A stretch of DNA of 54,808 nucleotides, taken from NCBI RefSeq assembly GCF_020515525.1, contig NZ_JAIYEP010000024.1:1-54808 (forward strand). Reading direction: 5' to 3'. The notes beneath the pieces were generated by a model. That model did no database searches and was not told where the DNA came from. It saw nothing but the letters and a program-made list of their open reading frames with translations. The stretch comes from Rhodococcus yananensis (lineage in GTDB: Bacteria; Actinomycetota; Actinomycetes; Mycobacteriales; Mycobacteriaceae). A program made the position numbers and the translations under genes. Of the stretch, positions 2,243-49,796 are shown in pieces. The first letter of the stretch is position 1. Each line of letters opens with the position of its first letter.

Positions 2243-4798
2243 GTGGACTCGTTCAACCCGACGACGAAAACACAGGCTGCGCTGACCGCTGCGCTCCAGT
2301 CGGCGTCCGCTGCGGGTAACCCGGACATCCGTCCGGCGCACCTGCTCGTGGCGTTGCTCGACCAGACCGACGGCATCGCGGGGCCGCTGCTGAAGGCGAT
2401 CGGCGTCGACGCCGCGCAGGTGCGCCGCGCCGCGCAGGACCTCGTCGACGCACTGCCCACCGCCACCGGCGCGACCACGACCCCGCAGCTCGGTCGCGAG
2501 GCCATCGCCGCGCTGTCCGCCGCCCAGAAACTCGCCACCGAACTGACCGACGAATTCGTCTCCACCGAGCACGTCCTCGTGGGACTCGCGGGCGGAGACA
2601 GTGATGTCGCGAAGCTGCTCGCCGGGCACGGCGCCACACCCGCGGCGCTGCGCGAGGCGTTCACCGCCGTCCGCGGCACCGGGCGGGTCACCAGCGCCGA
2701 TCCGGAAGGCACGTTCCAGGCGCTCGAGAAGTATTCGACCGACCTCACCGCCCGAGCCCGCGACGGCGAACTCGACCCGGTCATCGGCCGCGACAACGAG
2801 ATCCGCCGCGTCGTGCAGGTGCTCTCGCGGCGTACCAAGAACAACCCGGTGCTGATCGGTGAGCCGGGTGTCGGCAAGACCGCGATCGTCGAGGGGCTCG
2901 CCCAGCGCGTCGTCGCCGGTGACGTCCCCGAATCGCTGCGCGGCAAGACCGTCATCTCCCTCGATCTCGGGTCGATGGTCGCCGGTGCCAAGTACCGCGG
3001 TGAGTTCGAGGAACGCCTCAAGGCCGTCCTCGACGAGATCAAGGCCTCCGCGGGGCAGATCATCACGTTCATCGACGAGCTGCACACGATCGTCGGTGCC
3101 GGAGCGACCGGTGAGTCGGCGATGGATGCCGGGAACATGATCAAGCCGATGCTCGCCCGCGGTGAGCTGCGGCTCGTCGGTGCCACCACCCTCGAGGAGT
3201 ACCGCAAGTACATCGAGAAGGACGCCGCCCTCGAACGCCGGTTCCAGCAGGTGCTCGTCGGTGAACCGAGCGTGGAGGACACCATCGGTATCCTGCGCGG
3301 GCTCAAGGAGCGCTACGAGGTGCACCACGGTGTGCGGATCACCGACTCCGCGTTGGTGTCGGCCGCAACGCTGTCCGACCGGTACATCACCTCGCGGTTC
3401 CTGCCCGACAAGGCCATCGACCTCGTCGACGAGGCCGCGTCGCGACTCCGCATGGAGATCGACTCCCGCCCCGAGGAGATCGACACCGTCGAACGCGTCG
3501 TCCGTCGCCTCGAGATCGAGGAGATGGCCCTGCAGAAGGAGACCGACGAGGCGTCGAAGGATCGGCTCGACAAACTGCGCGCCGAACTCGCCGACGAACG
3601 CGAGAAGCTGAACCAGCTCACCACCCGGTGGCAGAACGAGAAGACCGCGATCGACTCGGTCCGCGAGGTCAAGGAGCAACTCGAAGCGTTGCGCGGCGAG
3701 GAGGAACGTGCCGAACGCGACGGTGACCTCGGCAAGGCCGCGGAACTGCGCTACGGACGCATCCCCGAACTGGAGAAGAAGCTCGAGGCCGCTGCCGCTG
3801 CCTCCGGCGGCTCCACCGGCGACGACGTGATGCTCAAGGAGGAAGTGGGGCCCGACGACGTCGCCGACGTGGTCGCCGCGTGGACCGGTATTCCCGCCGG
3901 CCGGATGCTCGAGGGCGAGACCGCCAAGCTGCTGCGCATGGAGGACGAACTCGGCAAGCGGGTCGTCGGTCAGGCCGACGCCGTGCAGGCCGTGTCCGAC
4001 GCGGTGCGACGCGCGCGGGCGGGCGTCGCCGATCCGAACCGGCCCACCGGATCGTTCCTGTTCCTCGGCCCGACCGGGGTCGGTAAGACCGAGCTCGCCA
4101 AGGCACTCGCCGACTTCCTGTTCGACGACGAACGCGCCATGGTGCGGATCGACATGTCGGAATACAGCGAGAAACACAGTGTCGCCCGGCTGGTCGGTGC
4201 CCCTCCCGGCTACGTGGGTTACGAGTCCGGTGGCCAGCTCACCGAGGCCGTACGTCGCCGGCCGTACTCGGTGGTGCTGTTCGACGAGGTCGAGAAGGCG
4301 CACCCGGACGTCTTCGACGCGCTGCTGCAGGTGCTCGACGACGGTCGGCTCACCGACGGGCAGGGTCGCACGGTGGACTTCCGCAACACCATCTTGATCC
4401 TCACCTCCAATCTCGGTGCAGGTGGGGACAGGGACCAGGTGATGGCCGCGGTGCGGATGGCGTTCAAGCCGGAGTTCATCAACCGGCTCGACGACGTCGT
4501 GATCTTCGATCCGCTGTCGGAGGAACAACTCGAGCAGATCGTCGACATCCAGCTCGGTCAGCTGTCCGAGCGGCTCGCCGCACGCCGGCTCACGCTCGAC
4601 GTCGACGGATCGGCCCGCATGTGGCTGGCCGTGCGCGGATACGACCCGCAGTACGGTGCTCGCCCGCTGCGCCGGCTCATCCAGCAGGCGATCGGCGACC
4701 AGCTCGCCAAGAAGCTGCTGGCCGGTGAGATCCGCGACGGCGACACCGTTTCCGTCGGGGTCGGTGACGACGCCGATCACCTGGTCATCGGTGCCTGA
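2243..4798 (+). CDS. clpB: ATP-dependent disaggregase ClpB
   Basis: ClpB is a hexameric AAA+ chaperone that extracts polypeptides from aggregates together with DnaK. The 851-residue protein has the Clp N domain (about 1-145), a first AAA+ module with Walker [10 protein letters not shown] near residue 206, a coiled-coil middle domain rich in Glu/Lys/Arg (about 405-525), and a second AAA+ module with Walker [10 protein letters not shown] near residue 609. The length is typical for actinobacterial ClpB. The GTG start has a strong GGAAGGAG site. The HAIR and ECF elements upstream predict heat and envelope-stress induction. A large palindrome follows the stop codon. Confidence 0.97.
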
Positions 4799-4801
4799 CA
4801 C

Positions 4802-4845
4802 CCGTGCGCACTTCTGGTAGCGCCGGCTACCAGAAGTGCGCACGG
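4802..4845. repeat. Perfect 20-bp inverted repeat, palindromic element copy A
   Basis: The left arm (4802-4821, CCGTGCGCACTTCTGGTAGC) and right arm (4826-4845) are perfectly complementary around a GCCG loop. It starts 3 bp after the clpB stop codon and could act as a terminator. The core GTGCGCACTTCTGGTAGC matches the arm of the palindrome at 41538-41577 at 15 of 18 positions. No T-tract follows it. Confidence 0.85.
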
Positions 4846-4862
4846 CTACCCTGGGGAGGGTC

Positions 4863-5729
4863 ATGACGAATCCGGAGGACCCGCGCACGCCGCAGGAGCG
4901 CGCCTACTCGCTCGACGAGCCGGGCGACGACGACGCGCGCGTGCTGTACACCGACGACCCGACCGAGGCGTACGGGCGGCCGGCCGCCAACCCGACACTG
5001 GTGTATCCGCAGTACGATCCGCGGTTCGACCCGTCGGCACCGCCGCCCGGCGACACCCGTCCACTCGGTGACCCCTACGCGCCGACACCGCATCATCCGC
5101 AGTACGCACCGACACAACAGTTCGGAACTCCCGGGCCGTACCAGCAACAACCGCAGTACGCACCCCAGCAGTACGGGCCTCCCGGTGCCCCTCCCGCGGG
5201 GCCGGGGCAGGGCGACGGGCCCGGTGGTTCCCGCGGCCCGCGCTGGGGGCTGCTCGCGCTCTTGGCCGCCGGCATCGTCGCGTTCGGCGCGGTCGTCGGC
5301 CTGCTGCTCGGCACCGTCGGCAGCGGCGACGACGCGACCGTGGCGGCACCGACCACCACGACCGCGGCCCCCGCACCCACCACCACGCGACCACCGGCGA
5401 CGACACAACCGTCGCTGCCGACCATGCCGCTCGACCCGCTACCCGGCCGGGTCGCGGAGGAGCTCGCCGCGTCCGGCATGGTGGTCGGCACCGTCACCGC
5501 GAACGACGGCACCAGCATCACCGTCAGCGCGATCGGTGGTTCGCTCGTGACCGTGCAGATCACCGAAGCCACCCGCATCATGACCCGGAACGACGACGTG
5601 TCGGACATCGAGGCGGGGGCGACGGCGGTCGTCTACGGCTCCCCGGTCGAGAACGGCCGCATGACCGCCGACAGGATCGTCAGCGCGTCGCTGCCGTCAT
5701 TCGGCGGTCCCGGCACCGGTCCACGCTAG
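4863..5729 (+). CDS. Pro/Gln-rich membrane-anchored protein with DUF5666-like domain
   Basis: The 288-residue protein has a cytosolic N-terminus of about 130 residues rich in Pro, Gln and Tyr (repeated PQYAP/PQY motifs). One transmembrane helix follows (about 138-160), then an extracytoplasmic Thr/Pro linker. The C-terminal domain of about 75 residues (GTVTANDGTSITV onward) resembles DUF5666, a small beta-fold found in envelope proteins. The role is unknown. The ATG at 4863 is preferred over an in-frame start at 4836, because 4836 falls inside the palindrome and 4863 follows a GGGGAGGG site. A candidate -10 (TACCCT, 4847-4852) follows directly after the palindrome. Confidence 0.75.
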   Translation: MTNPEDPRTPQERAYSLDEPGDDDARVLYTDDPTEAYGRPAANPTLVYPQYDPRFDPSAPPPGDTRPLGDPYAPTPHHPQYAPTQQFGTPGPYQQQPQYAPQQYGPPGAPPAGPGQGDGPGGSRGPRWGLLALLAAGIVAFGAVVGLLLGTVGSGDDATVAAPTTTTAAPAPTTTRPPATTQPSLPTMPLDPLPGRVAEELAASGMVVGTVTANDGTSITVSAIGGSLVTVQITEATRIMTRNDDVSDIEAGATAVVYGSPVENGRMTADRIVSASLPSFGGPGTGPR

Positions 5730-16008: not shown

Positions 16009-16053
16009 CACGGCCCGCGACGCCGCCGTTCACCGGCAGCGTCGCGGGCCGTG
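16009..16053. terminator. Perfect 15-bp hairpin between convergent fba and LysR genes
   Basis: CACGGCCCGCGACGC (16009-16023) pairs perfectly with 16039-16053 around a 15-nt loop. It lies about 50 bp after the fba stop and 25 bp after the end of the opposite LysR gene, so it can serve as a bidirectional terminator. No T-tract follows, as is usual in this group. Confidence 0.75.
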
Positions 16054-24938: not shown

Positions 24939-25065
24939 GGGACCTCGTGCTCTGCTGGGGTGGGCTGCGGCCGGACTCCACCACGACAGCGCGCCGCCCG
25001 GATCGCGGGTGCACGAACTGCCTTGCCGGACCCCGTTTCGCAGACCACGGCGATTGTCGGAGTCG

Positions 25066-25198
25066 CGGACACCCACGCAGGTATTCGGGCTCACTGTCGA
25101 TTTCGACAGTCCACCGTTGCGGGTCAGCGCCGGATTTCGACCGGACTTCCCCTGCTGTGGGCGTCAGCAACGCTGGCGTCATTATGCACAGGTGTCCG
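25066..25198 (-). promoter_or_regulatory. Compact cobalamin riboswitch of the ABC/FhuF operon
   Basis: On the minus strand the terminal stem P1 is CGGACACC (25198-25191) with GGTGTCCG (25073-25066). Between them are the conserved core GGGAAGTCCGGTC, AAATCCGGCGC and GACCCGCAACGGT, an 8-bp hairpin (ACTGTCGA and complement), and AGCCCGAATACCTGC, matching the AGTCxGAxGACCTGC end of cobalamin riboswitches. It is about 133 nt, shorter than the cob-operon switches, and has ACGGTGG in place of the common CCACTG box. A possible -10 (TACGTC) is at 25215-25220. Confidence 0.82.
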
Positions 25199-40335: not shown

Positions 40336-40950
40336 CTACCATTCGATGCCCTTCTGGCCCTTCTGCCCCGCATCCATCGGATGCTTGACCTTCGTCATCT
40401 CGGTCACCAGGTCGGCCACCTCGATGAGCTTCGGGTGCGCGCGTCGGCCGGTGATCATCACGTGCTGGTGCCCGGGACGGGACACGAGGGTGTCGACGAC
40501 CTCGTCGATGTCGACCCACCCCCATCGGATCGGATACGTGAACTCGTCCAGCACGTACAGGCCGTGCTGTTCGGCGGCGAGTCGGCGCTGGATCTCACGC
40601 CACCCGGCGAGCGCGTCCGCGGCATGGTCCTCGTCGCTTCCCTCCTTGCGGGACCACGACCAGCCCGAACCCATCTTGTGCCATTCGATCGGCCCGCCGT
40701 CGCCGCGCTCGTCGTGCAACGCGCCGAGGGTCTCGAACGCGGTCTGCTCACCGAGACGCCACTTCGCGGACTTCACGAACTGGAACACCGCGACCGACCA
40801 GCCCTGGTTCCAGCCGCGGAGCGCGAGACCGAACGCTGCCGTCGACTTGCCCTTGCCGTCGCCGGTGTTGACCATCAGCAGCGGGCGATTGCGACGCTGG
40901 CGGGTGGTCAGCCCGTCGTTCGGCACCACAGCGGGTTGTCCCTTCGGCAT
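40336..40950 (-). CDS. cobO: Cob(I)yrinic acid a,c-diamide adenosyltransferase
   Basis: CobO transfers the adenosyl group of ATP to the cobalt of corrinoids. The P-loop VNTGDGKGKSTAAFG is near residue 28, and the conserved QFVKSAKWRLGE, YVLDEFTYPIRWGW and VMITGRRAHPKLIEVADLVTEM segments follow. It has 204 residues. ATG overlaps the chelatase stop (ATGA). Confidence 0.96.
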   Translation of the reverse strand: MPKGQPAVVPNDGLTTRQRRNRPLLMVNTGDGKGKSTAAFGLALRGWNQGWSVAVFQFVKSAKWRLGEQTAFETLGALHDERGDGGPIEWHKMGSGWSWSRKEGSDEDHAADALAGWREIQRRLAAEQHGLYVLDEFTYPIRWGWVDIDEVVDTLVSRPGHQHVMITGRRAHPKLIEVADLVTEMTKVKHPMDAGQKGQKGIEW

Positions 40951-42905
40951 CAGGCTGCTCTCCTTCGGACGATTCCGGTGAGGGCGTCGGCGTCGACCTC
41001 ACCCACTTCCACGTGTTCGGCGCCGAGCCGGTCGGCGAGCCGCGCGGCCAGCCCCATCCGGAACCTGCCGGTCTCCGAATCGACCACCACCGACGCGACA
41101 CCGGAGGCGGCGATCCGGTCGGCTGCCGTGAGCGACCGGGCCACCGCGTCGTCACCGGAGGTGGCGCGACCGTCGGTGACGACGACGAGCAGCGCCCGCC
41201 GGTCCGGCTCGCGCCGCCGGTGGCGTTCGAGGACTTCGGCGGCCTCGACCAGACCCTCGGCGAGGGGAGTGCGTCCGCCGGCGGGGAGTTGCCGGAGTCG
41301 AGTGGCGGCAAGATCGACCGAATTCGTCGGCGGCAGAACGAGAGTCGCGTTGTCGCCGCGGAACGTGACGAGCCCGACGGTGTCGCGGCGACGGTACGCG
41401 TCGAGCAGCAGCGACAGGATCGCCGTCTTGACCTGGGTCATGCGTTTCTTCGCGGCCATCGACCCGGACGCGTCGACGCACAGCAGCACGAGATTCGCCT
41501 CGCGTCCTTCGATCACCTTCCGCCGCACCTCCCACCCGTGCGCGTTTGTGGTAGCTCCAGCTACCACAAACGCGCACCGCTGGAGGGCGGTGGCGCGGAT
41601 CGTCGCGGGCAGGTGGATGGGGCCGCCCTCGCTCCCGTCACCGCGATCGGCGCGATCCCCGACGGTGCGCCCGATCGTGGTGGTGGCCTTCGACCGTCTG
41701 CCGGCCACACCGCGACCGGTACGGTCGACGGCGAACAGCTTCGCGCGGAACGGCTCGGCGGGTGCATCCACAGTGGTTCCGCTCCCGGCAGCATCGCCGG
41801 GGTTCCGCCCGCCGCGCGGCGGCTCGGCGCCGTCGGACGGATCGGGGGAGCCTCCCCCGTCGCCGTCCGGATCGTCATCCGGGTCGGGTTCGTCGGTCGG
41901 CGGTGGGCTCAGCAACTCGTCGAGCAGATCGTCGTCGTTGTCGTGGCTGTCGAACGGATTGCGCCGACGCCGGTGCGGCAACGCCAGTTTCGCCGCGACC
42001 GCGACGTCCTCCCGGGTCACCTCGTCACGCCCCTCCCATGCCGCGTGTGCGACCGCGGTCTTCGCGGTCACCAGATCGGCGCGCATCCCGTCGACGTCGA
42101 ACGCCGCGCACACCTCGGCGATCGCGAGCAGCGCATCGTCGCCGAGCGTCACCGACGCCACCCGCCGACGAGCGAGCGCGATGCGCTGCGACAGCGCATC
42201 CTCGGCATCGGCCCACCGCGCGGCGAAACCCTCGGGATCGGCATCGAAGGCGAGGCGCCGCCGCACGATCTCGACGCGCACCTGCGGGTCGCGGGGTGCA
42301 GCGACGTCCACGGCCAGGCCGAACCGGTCGAGCAACTGCGGGCGCAACTCACCCTCCTCGGGGTTCATCGTCCCCACCAGCACGAACTGCGCCGCGTGGC
42401 TCACCGACACCCCGTCCCGTTCGACGGTGGAACGGCCCATCGCGGCCGCGTCGAGAAGCAGGTCGACGAGATGGTCGTGCAGCAGATTGACCTCGTCGAC
42501 GTACAGCACACCGCGATGCGCGAGCGCGAGAAGCCCCGGCTCGTATTCGGCGGTGCGGGCCGACAGGGCCTTGCCGAGGTGCAGGGACCCGGTCACCCGG
42601 TCCTCACTCGCCCCGACCGGCAACTCCACGAGACGCGCCGCACGCACGTGCGATTGCGCGTCGGCGGGGTGCGGACCGTCGGGGCATCGAGGGTCGGGGG
42701 AGGTGGGATCGCACGCGAACCGGCACCCTTCGACCTCATCGACCTGCGGCAACAGCGCCGCCTGGGCGCGCACCATCGTCGATTTCGCGGTGCCCTTCTC
42801 GCCGCGCACCAGCACCCCGCCGATCGAGGGCGACACCGCACACAACGTCAACGCCAGCGCCAGGTCGTCGGAGCCGACGACGGCGCTGAACGGAAACACG
42901 ACCAC
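40950..42905 (-). CDS. ChlI/ChlD-like chelatase ATPase with VWA domain (putative cobaltochelatase subunit)
   Basis: One protein combines a ChlI-type AAA+ module (about residues 1-330; P-loop RGEKGTAKST, VLYVDEVNLL) and an acidic Pro/Asp linker (about 335-430). A C-terminal VWA domain follows (about 465-651) with the MIDAS motif DASGSM. With CobN it probably forms the ATP-dependent complex that inserts cobalt into hydrogenobyrinic acid diamide, replacing CobS and CobT; Rv2850c is the mycobacterial relative. Residues about 441-455 (CAFVVAGATTNAHG) are encoded by a perfect palindrome and look foreign. GTG 42905 has a GGAGGT site; the upstream ATG at 42950 falls in the riboswitch stem. Confidence 0.88.
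   Translation of the reverse strand: MVVFPFSAVVGSDDLALALTLCAVSPSIGGVLVRGEKGTAKSTMVRAQAALLPQVDEVEGCRFACDPTSPDPRCPDGPHPADAQSHVRAARLVELPVGASEDRVTGSLHLGKALSARTAEYEPGLLALAHRGVLYVDEVNLLHDHLVDLLLDAAAMGRSTVERDGVSVSHAAQFVLVGTMNPEEGELRPQLLDRFGLAVDVAAPRDPQVRVEIVRRRLAFDADPEGFAARWADAEDALSQRIALARRRVASVTLGDDALLAIAEVCAAFDVDGMRADLVTAKTAVAHAAWEGRDEVTREDVAVAAKLALPHRRRRNPFDSHDNDDDLLDELLSPPPTDEPDPDDDPDGDGGGSPDPSDGAEPPRGGRNPGDAAGSGTTVDAPAEPFRAKLFAVDRTGRGVAGRRSKATTTIGRTVGDRADRGDGSEGGPIHLPATIRATALQRCAFVVAGATTNAHGWEVRRKVIEGREANLVLLCVDASGSMAAKKRMTQVKTAILSLLLDAYRRRDTVGLVTFRGDNATLVLPPTNSVDLAATRLRQLPAGGRTPLAEGLVEAAEVLERHRRREPDRRALLVVVTDGRATSGDDAVARSLTAADRIAASGVASVVVDSETGRFRMGLAARLADRLGAEHVEVGEVDADALTGIVRRRAA
41538..41577. 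repeat. Perfect 19-bp inverted repeat inside the chelatase gene, palindromic element copy B
   Basis: GTGCGCGTTTGTGGTAGCT (41538-41556) pairs perfectly with 41559-41577 around CC. The first 18 bases differ from copy A (4804-4821) at three places (A/G, C/T, C/G), and each change is matched in the other arm. It is read in frame as part of the chelatase protein, between the AAA+ linker and the VWA domain. Confidence 0.88.
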
Positions 42906-42944
42906 TTCCAGACCTCCACAGGCTCCCGCTGGGACGTACACAGT

Positions 42945-43137
42945 CGGCAACCGCTCGAGGGCCGGTCTTCGGACTTCCCGGTCGAGCGTCGCGCGACGAC
43001 CTTCCCGGACCGGACGGTCCAGTGGTTGCGCTCGCGCGCATCGTCGGCGACTCCCGGGTCACCGCAGCGGGCCTGTGCCGGATTCGCACCGGCTTCCCGA
43101 TCATCCCCGTGAGGGGCACCTTCGAGGAGTGTTGCCG
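42945..43137 (-). promoter_or_regulatory. Cobalamin riboswitch of the chelatase-cobO-cobBC-cobD operon
   Basis: The P1 stem is CGGCAAC (43137 end) with GTTGCCG (42951-42945). The core GGGAAGCCGGTGCGAATCCG, then CAGGCCCGC, AACCACTGG and the final GGGAAGTCCGAAGACCGGCC are all canonical. A -10 box TAGACT (43149-43144 on the minus strand) places the transcription start right at the 5' end of P1. About 40 nt separate P1 from the GTG start and contain the ribosome site. Confidence 0.93.
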
Positions 43138-43233
43138 CCGCCGAGTCTATCCGCACCGGTCTCGGCGGGACCCGCCGCCCACACGCCGGGGTGGCACGCC
43201 CGCAGGCCGGAGCATCACGTTCTGCCCGCACGC

Positions 43234-49562: not shown

Positions 49563-49582
49563 ATCCCGGAAATCGGGTGCGT

Positions 49583-49588
49583 TAGGCT
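49583..49588 (+). promoter_or_regulatory. -10 box TAGGCT of the cobN operon
   Basis: TAGGCT is 6 nt upstream of 49595, the first base of the riboswitch P1 stem, which is therefore the likely transcription start. It lies only about 20 bp from the divergent cobG start codon. Confidence 0.6.
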
Positions 49589-49594
49589 GTGGAC

Positions 49595-49763
49595 GCCGTG
49601 GTGTACGGGAAGCCGGTGGAAGACCGGCGCGGCCCTCGCCACTGTGAGCGGGTAGTTGCTCACCCTCGTCCGTTCCGGTCCGCCGGAACGGAGACCACTG
49701 GACGCATGTCCGGGAAGGTCGGTGCGGCAGCGGTGATCCGTCAGCCAGGAGACCGGCCACGGC
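49595..49763 (+). promoter_or_regulatory. Cobalamin riboswitch of the cobN-cobF operon
   Basis: The P1 stem is GCCGTGG (49595-49601) with CCACGGC (49757-49763). The core ACGGGAAGCCGGTGGAAGAC, GCGGCCCTCGCCACTGTGAG and GTCAGCCAGGAGACCGGCC are textbook cobalamin riboswitch elements, with a long GTTCCGG/CCGGAAC side hairpin (about 49671-49689). It ends 33 nt before the ATG of a short leader ORF and 65 nt before cobN. Confidence 0.95.
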
Positions 49764-49796
49764 ATGTGTAGTCCACGAGGGTTTTGGAGACTGAAC

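Follow-up and report, generated by a model that had tools for sequence, protein, structure and literature searches.

The palindrome behind clpB in Rhodococcus yananensis belongs to a dispersed family of elements with a fixed length of 40 bp which lie mainly at gene ends and which, in related genomes, flank the gene of a protein with an AbiEi-type wHTH on both sides. Comparisons at the sequence level demonstrated the dispersal, placement and fixed length of these elements as well as the similarity of the palindromes flanking one gene, the replacement of gene and palindromes as a cassette, the swapping of palindrome types and the covariation of wHTH residues with them. We consider it rather probable that the palindromes represent gene-less dispersed members of a two-part system similar to REP/RAYT which employs a different protein.

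The palindrome family and its placement

The window, i.e. the whole stretch of 54,808 nucleotides that was analysed, had been described in an earlier note as containing two perfect palindromes of about 40 bp with a common arm pattern, and both were recovered with 18 bp paired in each (Table 1). Their arms differ at positions 7, 8 and 11, where the partner base is altered in step, so the compensatory variation described before is real. Pairing of copy 1 reaches further out to 4800-4847 with 21 of 22 pairs. The loop of copy 1 was given correctly as GCCG, whereas that of copy 2 is not CC but the four nucleotides TCCA, of which the outer T and A could pair. The pattern had also been judged hard to obtain by chance, in line with four occurrences of the arm pattern in the window (up to three mismatches) against 0.29 expected and with none of 100 shuffles reaching four. 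A third long hairpin of unrelated sequence (16009-16053, 19 of 20 pairs, loop TTCAC) is located 24 nt past the stop codon of a minus-strand gene. For the gene downstream of copy 1, a longer frame of 297 aa starting at 4836 matched no NCBIfam family.

Table 1. Palindromes of the window and the genes next to or around them.
Feature	Position	Strand	Description
clpB	2243..4798	+	TIGR03346 above its cut-off; stop codon TGA, ending 5 nt upstream of copy 1
Type-A 40-bp palindrome, copy 1	4804-4843	.	GTGCGCACTTCTGGTAGC-GCCG-GCTACCAGAAGTGCGCAC, 18-bp arms, perfect pairing
Gene downstream of copy 1	4863..5729	+	Start 19 nt past the palindrome, by custom gene caller
Putative cobaltochelatase subunit, carries copy 2	40950..42905	-	TIGR02442, E 2e-223, 743.5 bits against a cut-off of 779.45; start codon from custom gene caller
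Type-A 40-bp palindrome, copy 2	41538-41577	.	GTGCGCGTTTGTGGTAGC-TCCA-GCTACCACAAACGCGCAC, 18-bp arms, perfect pairing

A search for the full palindrome with up to three mismatches revealed 32 places in the draft assembly that contains the window (178 contigs, 4.25 Mb) and none for a reversed control pattern. Of 301 genomes belonging to the taxonomic family, 47 contain the same pattern, with zero control matches in every genome, which bears out the proposal of a palindrome family dispersed in this lineage, and it is distributed over four of 31 genera. Among the matches listed are Rhodococcus erythropolis, R. qingshengii, R. opacus, R. koreensis, R. jostii, R. globerulus, R. ruber, R. aetherivorans, R. 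zopfii, R. triatomae and others, as well as Prescottella subtropica. In the window's genome, palindrome arms lie within 80 bases of the start in at least 23 contigs and others are found at right ends; because of these extra arms at contig ends, the real copy number is likely to be higher. Many contigs of this genome end at or near an arm (e.g. L158, L170, L173-L176 and L178-L188), so the element may itself break assemblies.

The anatomy of the element was deduced from an alignment of 159 distinct copies with 60 bases on either side, taken from 180 located copies, which gave a core of approximately GTGCGCNNTTYTGGTAGY-NNNN-RCTACCARAANNGCGCAC. The arms match at position 7 in 157 and at position 8 in 151 of these copies. 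Position 18 is C or T on either arm and varies nearly independently between arms (76 mixed, 42 C/C, 37 T/T, 4 with G), as expected if this base is read and not paired. By eye, small-looped side hairpins accompany many copies outside the window's genome, and a stop codon is located in their loop or at their outer edge. Beside one palindrome of R. erythropolis (L278, around 500-580), the right side hairpin is tandemly duplicated, which was unseen in the R. qingshengii ortholog L264. Between two pairs of orthologous copies (L250/L280 and L266/L282), the 4-nt loop is altered at two of four bases in surroundings that are about 97% identical. No target duplication was seen by eye in the flanks of the aligned copies or at the site in the chelatase gene.

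When palindromes of the form GTG..CAC were counted irrespective of arm sequence, 209 were exactly 40 bp long, and none of the other lengths from 28 to 53 exceeded 7; 190 of these 209 are type A and were largely located with a 40-bp pattern, so the independent evidence on length consists of the 19 others, several of which were found via orthologous sites. Other end triplets have peaks too (GCG..CGC with 204 at 36, CTG..CAG with 62 at 44), and we assume that most of these are the same elements with their ends set two bases farther in or out.

Mapping to gene ends, as recommended earlier, showed that 146 of the 159 flanked copies have a stop codon at -20..30 nt. According to our custom gene caller, the 25 copies from the window's own genome are situated between convergent genes (13), between tandem genes (11) or inside a gene (1), and the 134 others at 60 convergent, 62 tandem, 3 divergent and 4 in-gene positions and at 5 locus edges, compared with 84% in-gene and 2% convergent for random positions in the same loci. 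Thus, 5 of 159 copies are in-gene, the in-frame position being established for copy 2 of the window. Among 112 family hairpins that a structure-based search detected in 105 named loci, all selected because they contain a copy, 102 lie near a stop codon, and of the other long hairpins of unrelated sequence (at least 16 pairs) 41 of 56 were found there as well, so that gene ends constitute a general niche for hairpins in these bacteria. Another stop-proximal hairpin family (around GCTGAAGG...CCTTCA) is common to different loci and species (L078 6908-6962, L121 415-471, L082 7447-7503).

A hairpin of at least 14 pairs with up to two mismatches follows the clpB stop codon at a distance of 1-10 nt in 17 of 18 genomes of the genus, and the eighteenth (G205) has an imperfect hairpin behind clpB. 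The arms at this site vary, with type A in several genomes, diverged forms in others and another type (GTGCGTCCTTTGGGC) in G176 and G186.

These data invite an explanation at the RNA level, namely that the palindromes are gene-end hairpins acting as terminators without a U-tract or as stabilisers of mRNA 3'-ends, with selected pairing and with the gene link described below as a by-product. The proximity to stop codons, the 146 of 159 convergent or tandem contexts, the clpB hairpins that diverged in their arms and yet stayed paired, the RNA stems of -36.5 and -34.0 kcal/mol and the unrelated hairpins at stop codons would all be in keeping with it. The pile-up at 40 bp (with the reservation on type A given above), the in-frame copy within an open gene in which pairing is kept and the resemblance of the palindromes flanking one gene argue against this view, and we regard it as quite unlikely. 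The U-tract of intrinsic terminators is rare: only 2 of 159 copies (L092, L110) have five consecutive T within 20 nt to the left or right. We rejected plain terminators as the sole explanation in view of the fixed length, the in-gene copy and the switching of types.

Partner gene and palindrome types

Ten close pairs of palindromes were observed among the loci examined, and all four pairs that were translated (0.97-1.16 kb apart) enclose the same kind of gene; this partner gene is also present in L129. It encodes a protein of about 344 aa for which AbiEi_4, a wHTH model, matches 47 of 49 members. The C-terminal half is matched weakly by DUF559 (9 of 49, best E 0.044), and REase_MTES_1575 (3 of 49, best E 0.12) and the AbiEi C-terminal model (1 of 49, E 0.12) were also seen, while both proteins scanned with PADLOC matched its AbiEi models. 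Arg271 is invariant (52 of 52) and occupies what we take to be the position of the expected acidic catalytic residue in DUF559 proteins, which makes a nuclease activity doubtful. Searches for further relatives gave no match in PHROGs for two partner proteins and none in NCBIfam for one; 58 pattern matches in viruses included no confirmed relative, and the two matches to solved structures (E 0.031 and 0.32) are unrelated dehydrogenases and were taken as chance. In the open-licence PMC literature, no paper with both DUF559 and AbiEi was found.

A protein search (E <= 1e-25) identified the partner gene in 55 of 301 genomes. In the window's genome there is no match at this threshold, only two distant ones (E 9e-8 and 9e-4). 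Upstream of a distant homolog on contig C4 of this genome, about 35 bp before the match, a GTG..CAC hairpin of about 39 bp with another sequence was noticed (L294). In strain IEGM 1409, the partner gene is spread over two frames (L363, 640-1652), perhaps through a frameshift.

For an analysis of the gene flanks, 50 loci were chosen by protein similarity, comprising the 30 best matches, including the query's own locus (G163), and 20 hand-picked lower ones. A 40-bp GTG..CAC palindrome flanks the gene on both sides in 36 of these 50 loci and on at least one side in 45; nine loci have it on one side only (one of them cut by a contig end) and five have none. Control genes, which came from loci chosen for having a palindrome, gave 4/573 for both sides and 166/573 for at least one side, and the four doubly flanked ones are other genes by sequence. 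When three previously known loci are added, the numbers become 39/53 and 48/53. The proteins of G122 and G097 are identical to those of R. qingshengii and R. erythropolis, and these two rows possibly derive from the very same genomes.

The upstream palindrome lies 35-120 bp before the start, and in 13 type-A rows the downstream palindrome starts 17 nt before the gene end and contains the stop codon TAG inside its arm, so that it is the palindrome sequence which codes for the end of the protein (e.g. CAPFW). The distance from palindrome start to gene end is 23 nt instead in G195, G204 and G265. The gene is present in 27 of the 47 genomes bearing type-A palindromes and in 28 of the 254 others, and some gene-bearing genomes without type A carry other palindrome types. 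In within-genus rank tests, which do not consider the tree, copy number was weakly associated with gene presence, with P 0.017 in the own genus (18 genomes) and P 0.043 in genus g24 (28 genomes).

Besides type A, the types B (GTGMGYGGTTAAGGAGTC and close forms), C (GTGAGTACTTATTAACCG), C' (GTGCGCCTTTATTAACCC) and D (GTGTGTCCTTTGGGCGGC) were distinguished, and further ones occur in genomes without type A, such as GTGCGTGAAATTTCACCG in G026 and GTGCGCCTTTTGCACATC in G089. Arms upstream and downstream of one gene differ on average at 2.5 of 18 positions (38 genes). Between genes, the arm differences by protein identity are 6.7-9.2 below 70% (6.7 at 60-70%), 5.8 at 70-80% and 2.3-2.8 above 80%. 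Protein and palindrome distances are correlated (Mantel r 0.58, 0/5000), a correlation that could come from common descent alone. Types A and B do not form separate clades in the protein tree: a type-A group (G195, G204, G265 and the mixed G251, which has type A upstream and type B downstream of its gene) is sister to a type-B group with support of 96/99, and the deep forks of this tree are weak.

In the wHTH, columns 22, 26, 31, 38 and 40 separate type-A from type-B proteins completely, and for residues 8-55 the true labelling is the only one of 462 that yields five separating columns (mean 0.07), compared with two separating columns in residues 56-335, which are reached by 27 of 462 splits. 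This test used 11 sequence clusters (6 versus 5) representing 27 of 53 rows, after exclusion of duplicates, of one short row and of rows whose type was mixed, missing or another one; it counts G265 as type A with one palindrome off-type, and its statistic ignores the tree. The columns are the best individual indication that the wHTH reads the palindrome, and recognition of its own palindrome type by the partner protein is considered likely.

Replacement of palindromes at single sites

The 22 type-A sites of R. qingshengii were compared with the 15 of R. erythropolis (up to two mismatches). A type-A counterpart at the same place in R. erythropolis exists for 13 of the 22, while eight have type B there at the same position and with the same length of 40 bp, and one has a decayed type A. 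As these nine sites were picked because type A is missing in R. erythropolis, the rate of replacement is 8/22 and not 8/9. Two of the eight sites flank the partner gene itself, and two of the 15 R. erythropolis sites are without a partner in R. qingshengii. In strain IEGM 1409, seven of nine sites are type B and two type A. At seven sites away from the gene, R. globerulus has type A six times (once across two places, each matching one flank) and once none, and strain IEGM 1379 has type A six times and once an imperfect type A; one of its six type-A sites is likewise split, the other half being without a palindrome.

At the partner locus, R. qingshengii carries A/A and R. erythropolis B/B palindromes, and the enclosed proteins are 66.5% identical. 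Since both species are about 90-100% identical in the flanks of the sites compared, gene and palindromes seem to have been swapped together as a cassette. This locus is devoid of the gene and of both flanking palindromes in R. globerulus and IEGM 1379. An unrelated long hairpin (GAGCGAACGTACCTTTC...) was found at the same place in these two, where the cassette is absent (L367, L368, L372, L373).

The two sites known from the window were also compared with the palindromes of resident partner genes, using six chelatase and five clpB palindromes. The chelatase gene is present in 16 of 18 genomes of the genus; six of these, the window's own included, have an in-frame 40-bp palindrome at the site, eight have an empty site that is 33-36 nt shorter, and two an altered stretch. 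In the window, copy 2 codes for about CAFVVAGATTNAH. The chelatase palindrome of G166 is nearest to those of its own second gene (1.5 mismatches; next 4.0) and that of G214 to those of its own gene (0; next 1.0). At clpB, the palindromes of both G176 and G186 are nearest to the D-type genes of these two genomes (2.0-2.75 mismatches; next 4.5-4.75). The chelatase palindrome of G176, on the other hand, is closer to the gene of G166 (1.0) than to the one of its own genome (2.5); for G186 there is a tie with the gene of G214, and the palindrome of G027, in which no gene was found, is nearest to G166's. At the level of sequence, the window sites thus track resident genes in some relatives but not in all. 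Three cobalamin riboswitches were observed in the window at 42943-43138 (-), 49582-49775 (+) and 25059-25190 (-), the first of them directly upstream of the chelatase gene with copy 2.

Within the chelatase gene, 64 of 79 differing pair positions, counted over all pairs of the six sequences, are changed on both arms. Because this pairing is kept within a coding region, a terminator role makes little sense there. Conservation of pairing could in principle be a matter of mutation, if template switching in a quasi-palindrome copies one arm onto the other without any selection, and the changes on both chelatase arms as well as the loop changes even between orthologous copies would fit such a process. 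It cannot yield dispersed copies, gene-specific types or the replacement of both arms by another known type, and the independent choice of C or T at position 18 of each arm looks like recognition; we therefore consider this explanation very unlikely.

More serious is the idea of an operator network, in which an AbiEi-like autoregulator or chromosome-wide binder has the gene-end palindromes as its binding sites and these are moved by ordinary recombination and not by the protein. The upstream palindrome, by its distance to the gene start, suits autoregulation, the wHTH residues follow the palindrome type, and the invariant Arg stands in place of the expected acidic residue; if the protein does not cut, this explanation applies. 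In addition, binding of AbiEi proteins to inverted repeats of 23 bp in their promoters is described in PMC7319586, which fits the upstream palindrome of the partner gene. For autoregulation, however, the second palindrome over the gene end would be superfluous, and whole 40-bp swaps at 8 of 22 sites between close species would need frequent exchange among short dispersed repeats. On balance, we hold this network to be unlikely, less so than the RNA-level explanation.

According to the preferred two-part reading, the unit would be palindrome, gene and palindrome. The protein would recognise palindromes of its own type as symmetric binding sites, and cutting or nicking by the protein, perhaps followed by repair from a cognate copy, would result in copying of the palindrome type. 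Receptive places would be other palindromes, hairpins just past stop codons and, rarely, positions inside genes. As no close partner gene was found in the window's genome, its 32 copies are regarded as orphans, which on the REP-like reading would have been left after gene loss. The chances that copying is driven by the partner protein appear about even. Several observations speak against the preferred reading: 13 of 22 sites are unswitched despite the type-B gene in R. erythropolis, the window's genome lacks a close partner, gene and type-A palindromes coincide only in part, some gene loci have a palindrome on one side or none, G251 combines two types, the chelatase palindrome of G176 is closer to a gene of another genome, nuclease activity is doubtful and no insertion junction with target duplication was seen. 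A further-reaching proposal, a new class of selfish repeats in which an AbiEi-wHTH/DUF559-like protein converts or seeds its own 40-bp palindrome at gene ends and a gene switch rewrites the palindromes genome-wide, is put forward only tentatively and with somewhat less than even confidence. If the protein does rewrite palindromes genome-wide, this would provide a testable function for the AbiEi/DUF559 family and a natural case of site conversion, in which the displacement of one protein-site pair by another could be studied. The palindromes may also explain broken assemblies.

Comparison with known systems

REP-like palindromes are known mainly in connection with HUH transposases, and a RAYT-like gene had been suggested as a companion of the window's palindromes. 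In the window's genome, no match to Y1_Tnp (PF01797) was obtained at E <= 1. Y1_Tnp was found in 39 of 301 genomes and is commoner with palindromes (16 of 47 palindrome-bearing genomes versus 23 of 254 others), and the genomes with 52, 67, 40 and 33 copies (G130, G265, G185 and G039) are without it. Despite the association, a RAYT partner was rejected, being absent from the own genome and from several high-copy genomes. Among the earlier guesses, a protein-binding site and a mobile hairpin came nearest, whereas the RAYT-type partner did not stand.

A REP is an imperfect palindrome with a GTAG (or CGTC) tag at one end. The elements described here differ from it in being symmetric 40-bp units with GTG..CAC ends and without a single-sided GTAG tag; GTAG lies inside the type-A arms and, as read by eye in some species, also at side-hairpin ends, and is absent from types B-D. 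In common with REP/RAYT systems and REPINs, short palindromes are dispersed between genes, several types co-vary with the gene and orphan copies exist. For RAYT genes, PMC2817692 reports that two REPs in inverted orientation flank them in every case. Likewise, the cognate gene lies here between two repeats of its own type, in relatives and not in the window's genome, and encodes an AbiEi-type protein; unlike RAYTs, the 49 partner proteins contain no Y1 domain among their Pfam matches. In PMC2817692 and PMC3733652, the words "Rhodococcus" and "actinobacteria" have 0 occurrences. Titles and abstract openings in the open-licence PMC literature contained no description of these palindromes, an absence which is no proof.

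With AbiEi of the type IV system AbiE, the partner protein shares the N-terminal wHTH and the inverted repeats at the promoter, and it differs in its weakly DUF559-like C-terminal half and in palindromes of 40 bp which occur at both gene ends and genome-wide. Rickettsia palindromic elements (RPE) are dispersed between genes and in frame inside genes. The palindromes resemble them in their dispersal, here rarely inside genes (5 of 159), and are unlike them in the length fixed at 40 bp and in having a candidate partner gene. Homing endonucleases with the Vsr-like EDxHD domain offer a parallel in the possible nuclease-like fold and in the replacement of a site by a marked copy; in the partner protein, known here from its sequence, the motif position is altered. 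Taken together, the logic of REPs, with a type matched to the resident gene, orphans and a gene-end niche, is encountered here with a DNA-binding-type protein of the AbiEi/DUF559 kind that is unrelated to those transposases.
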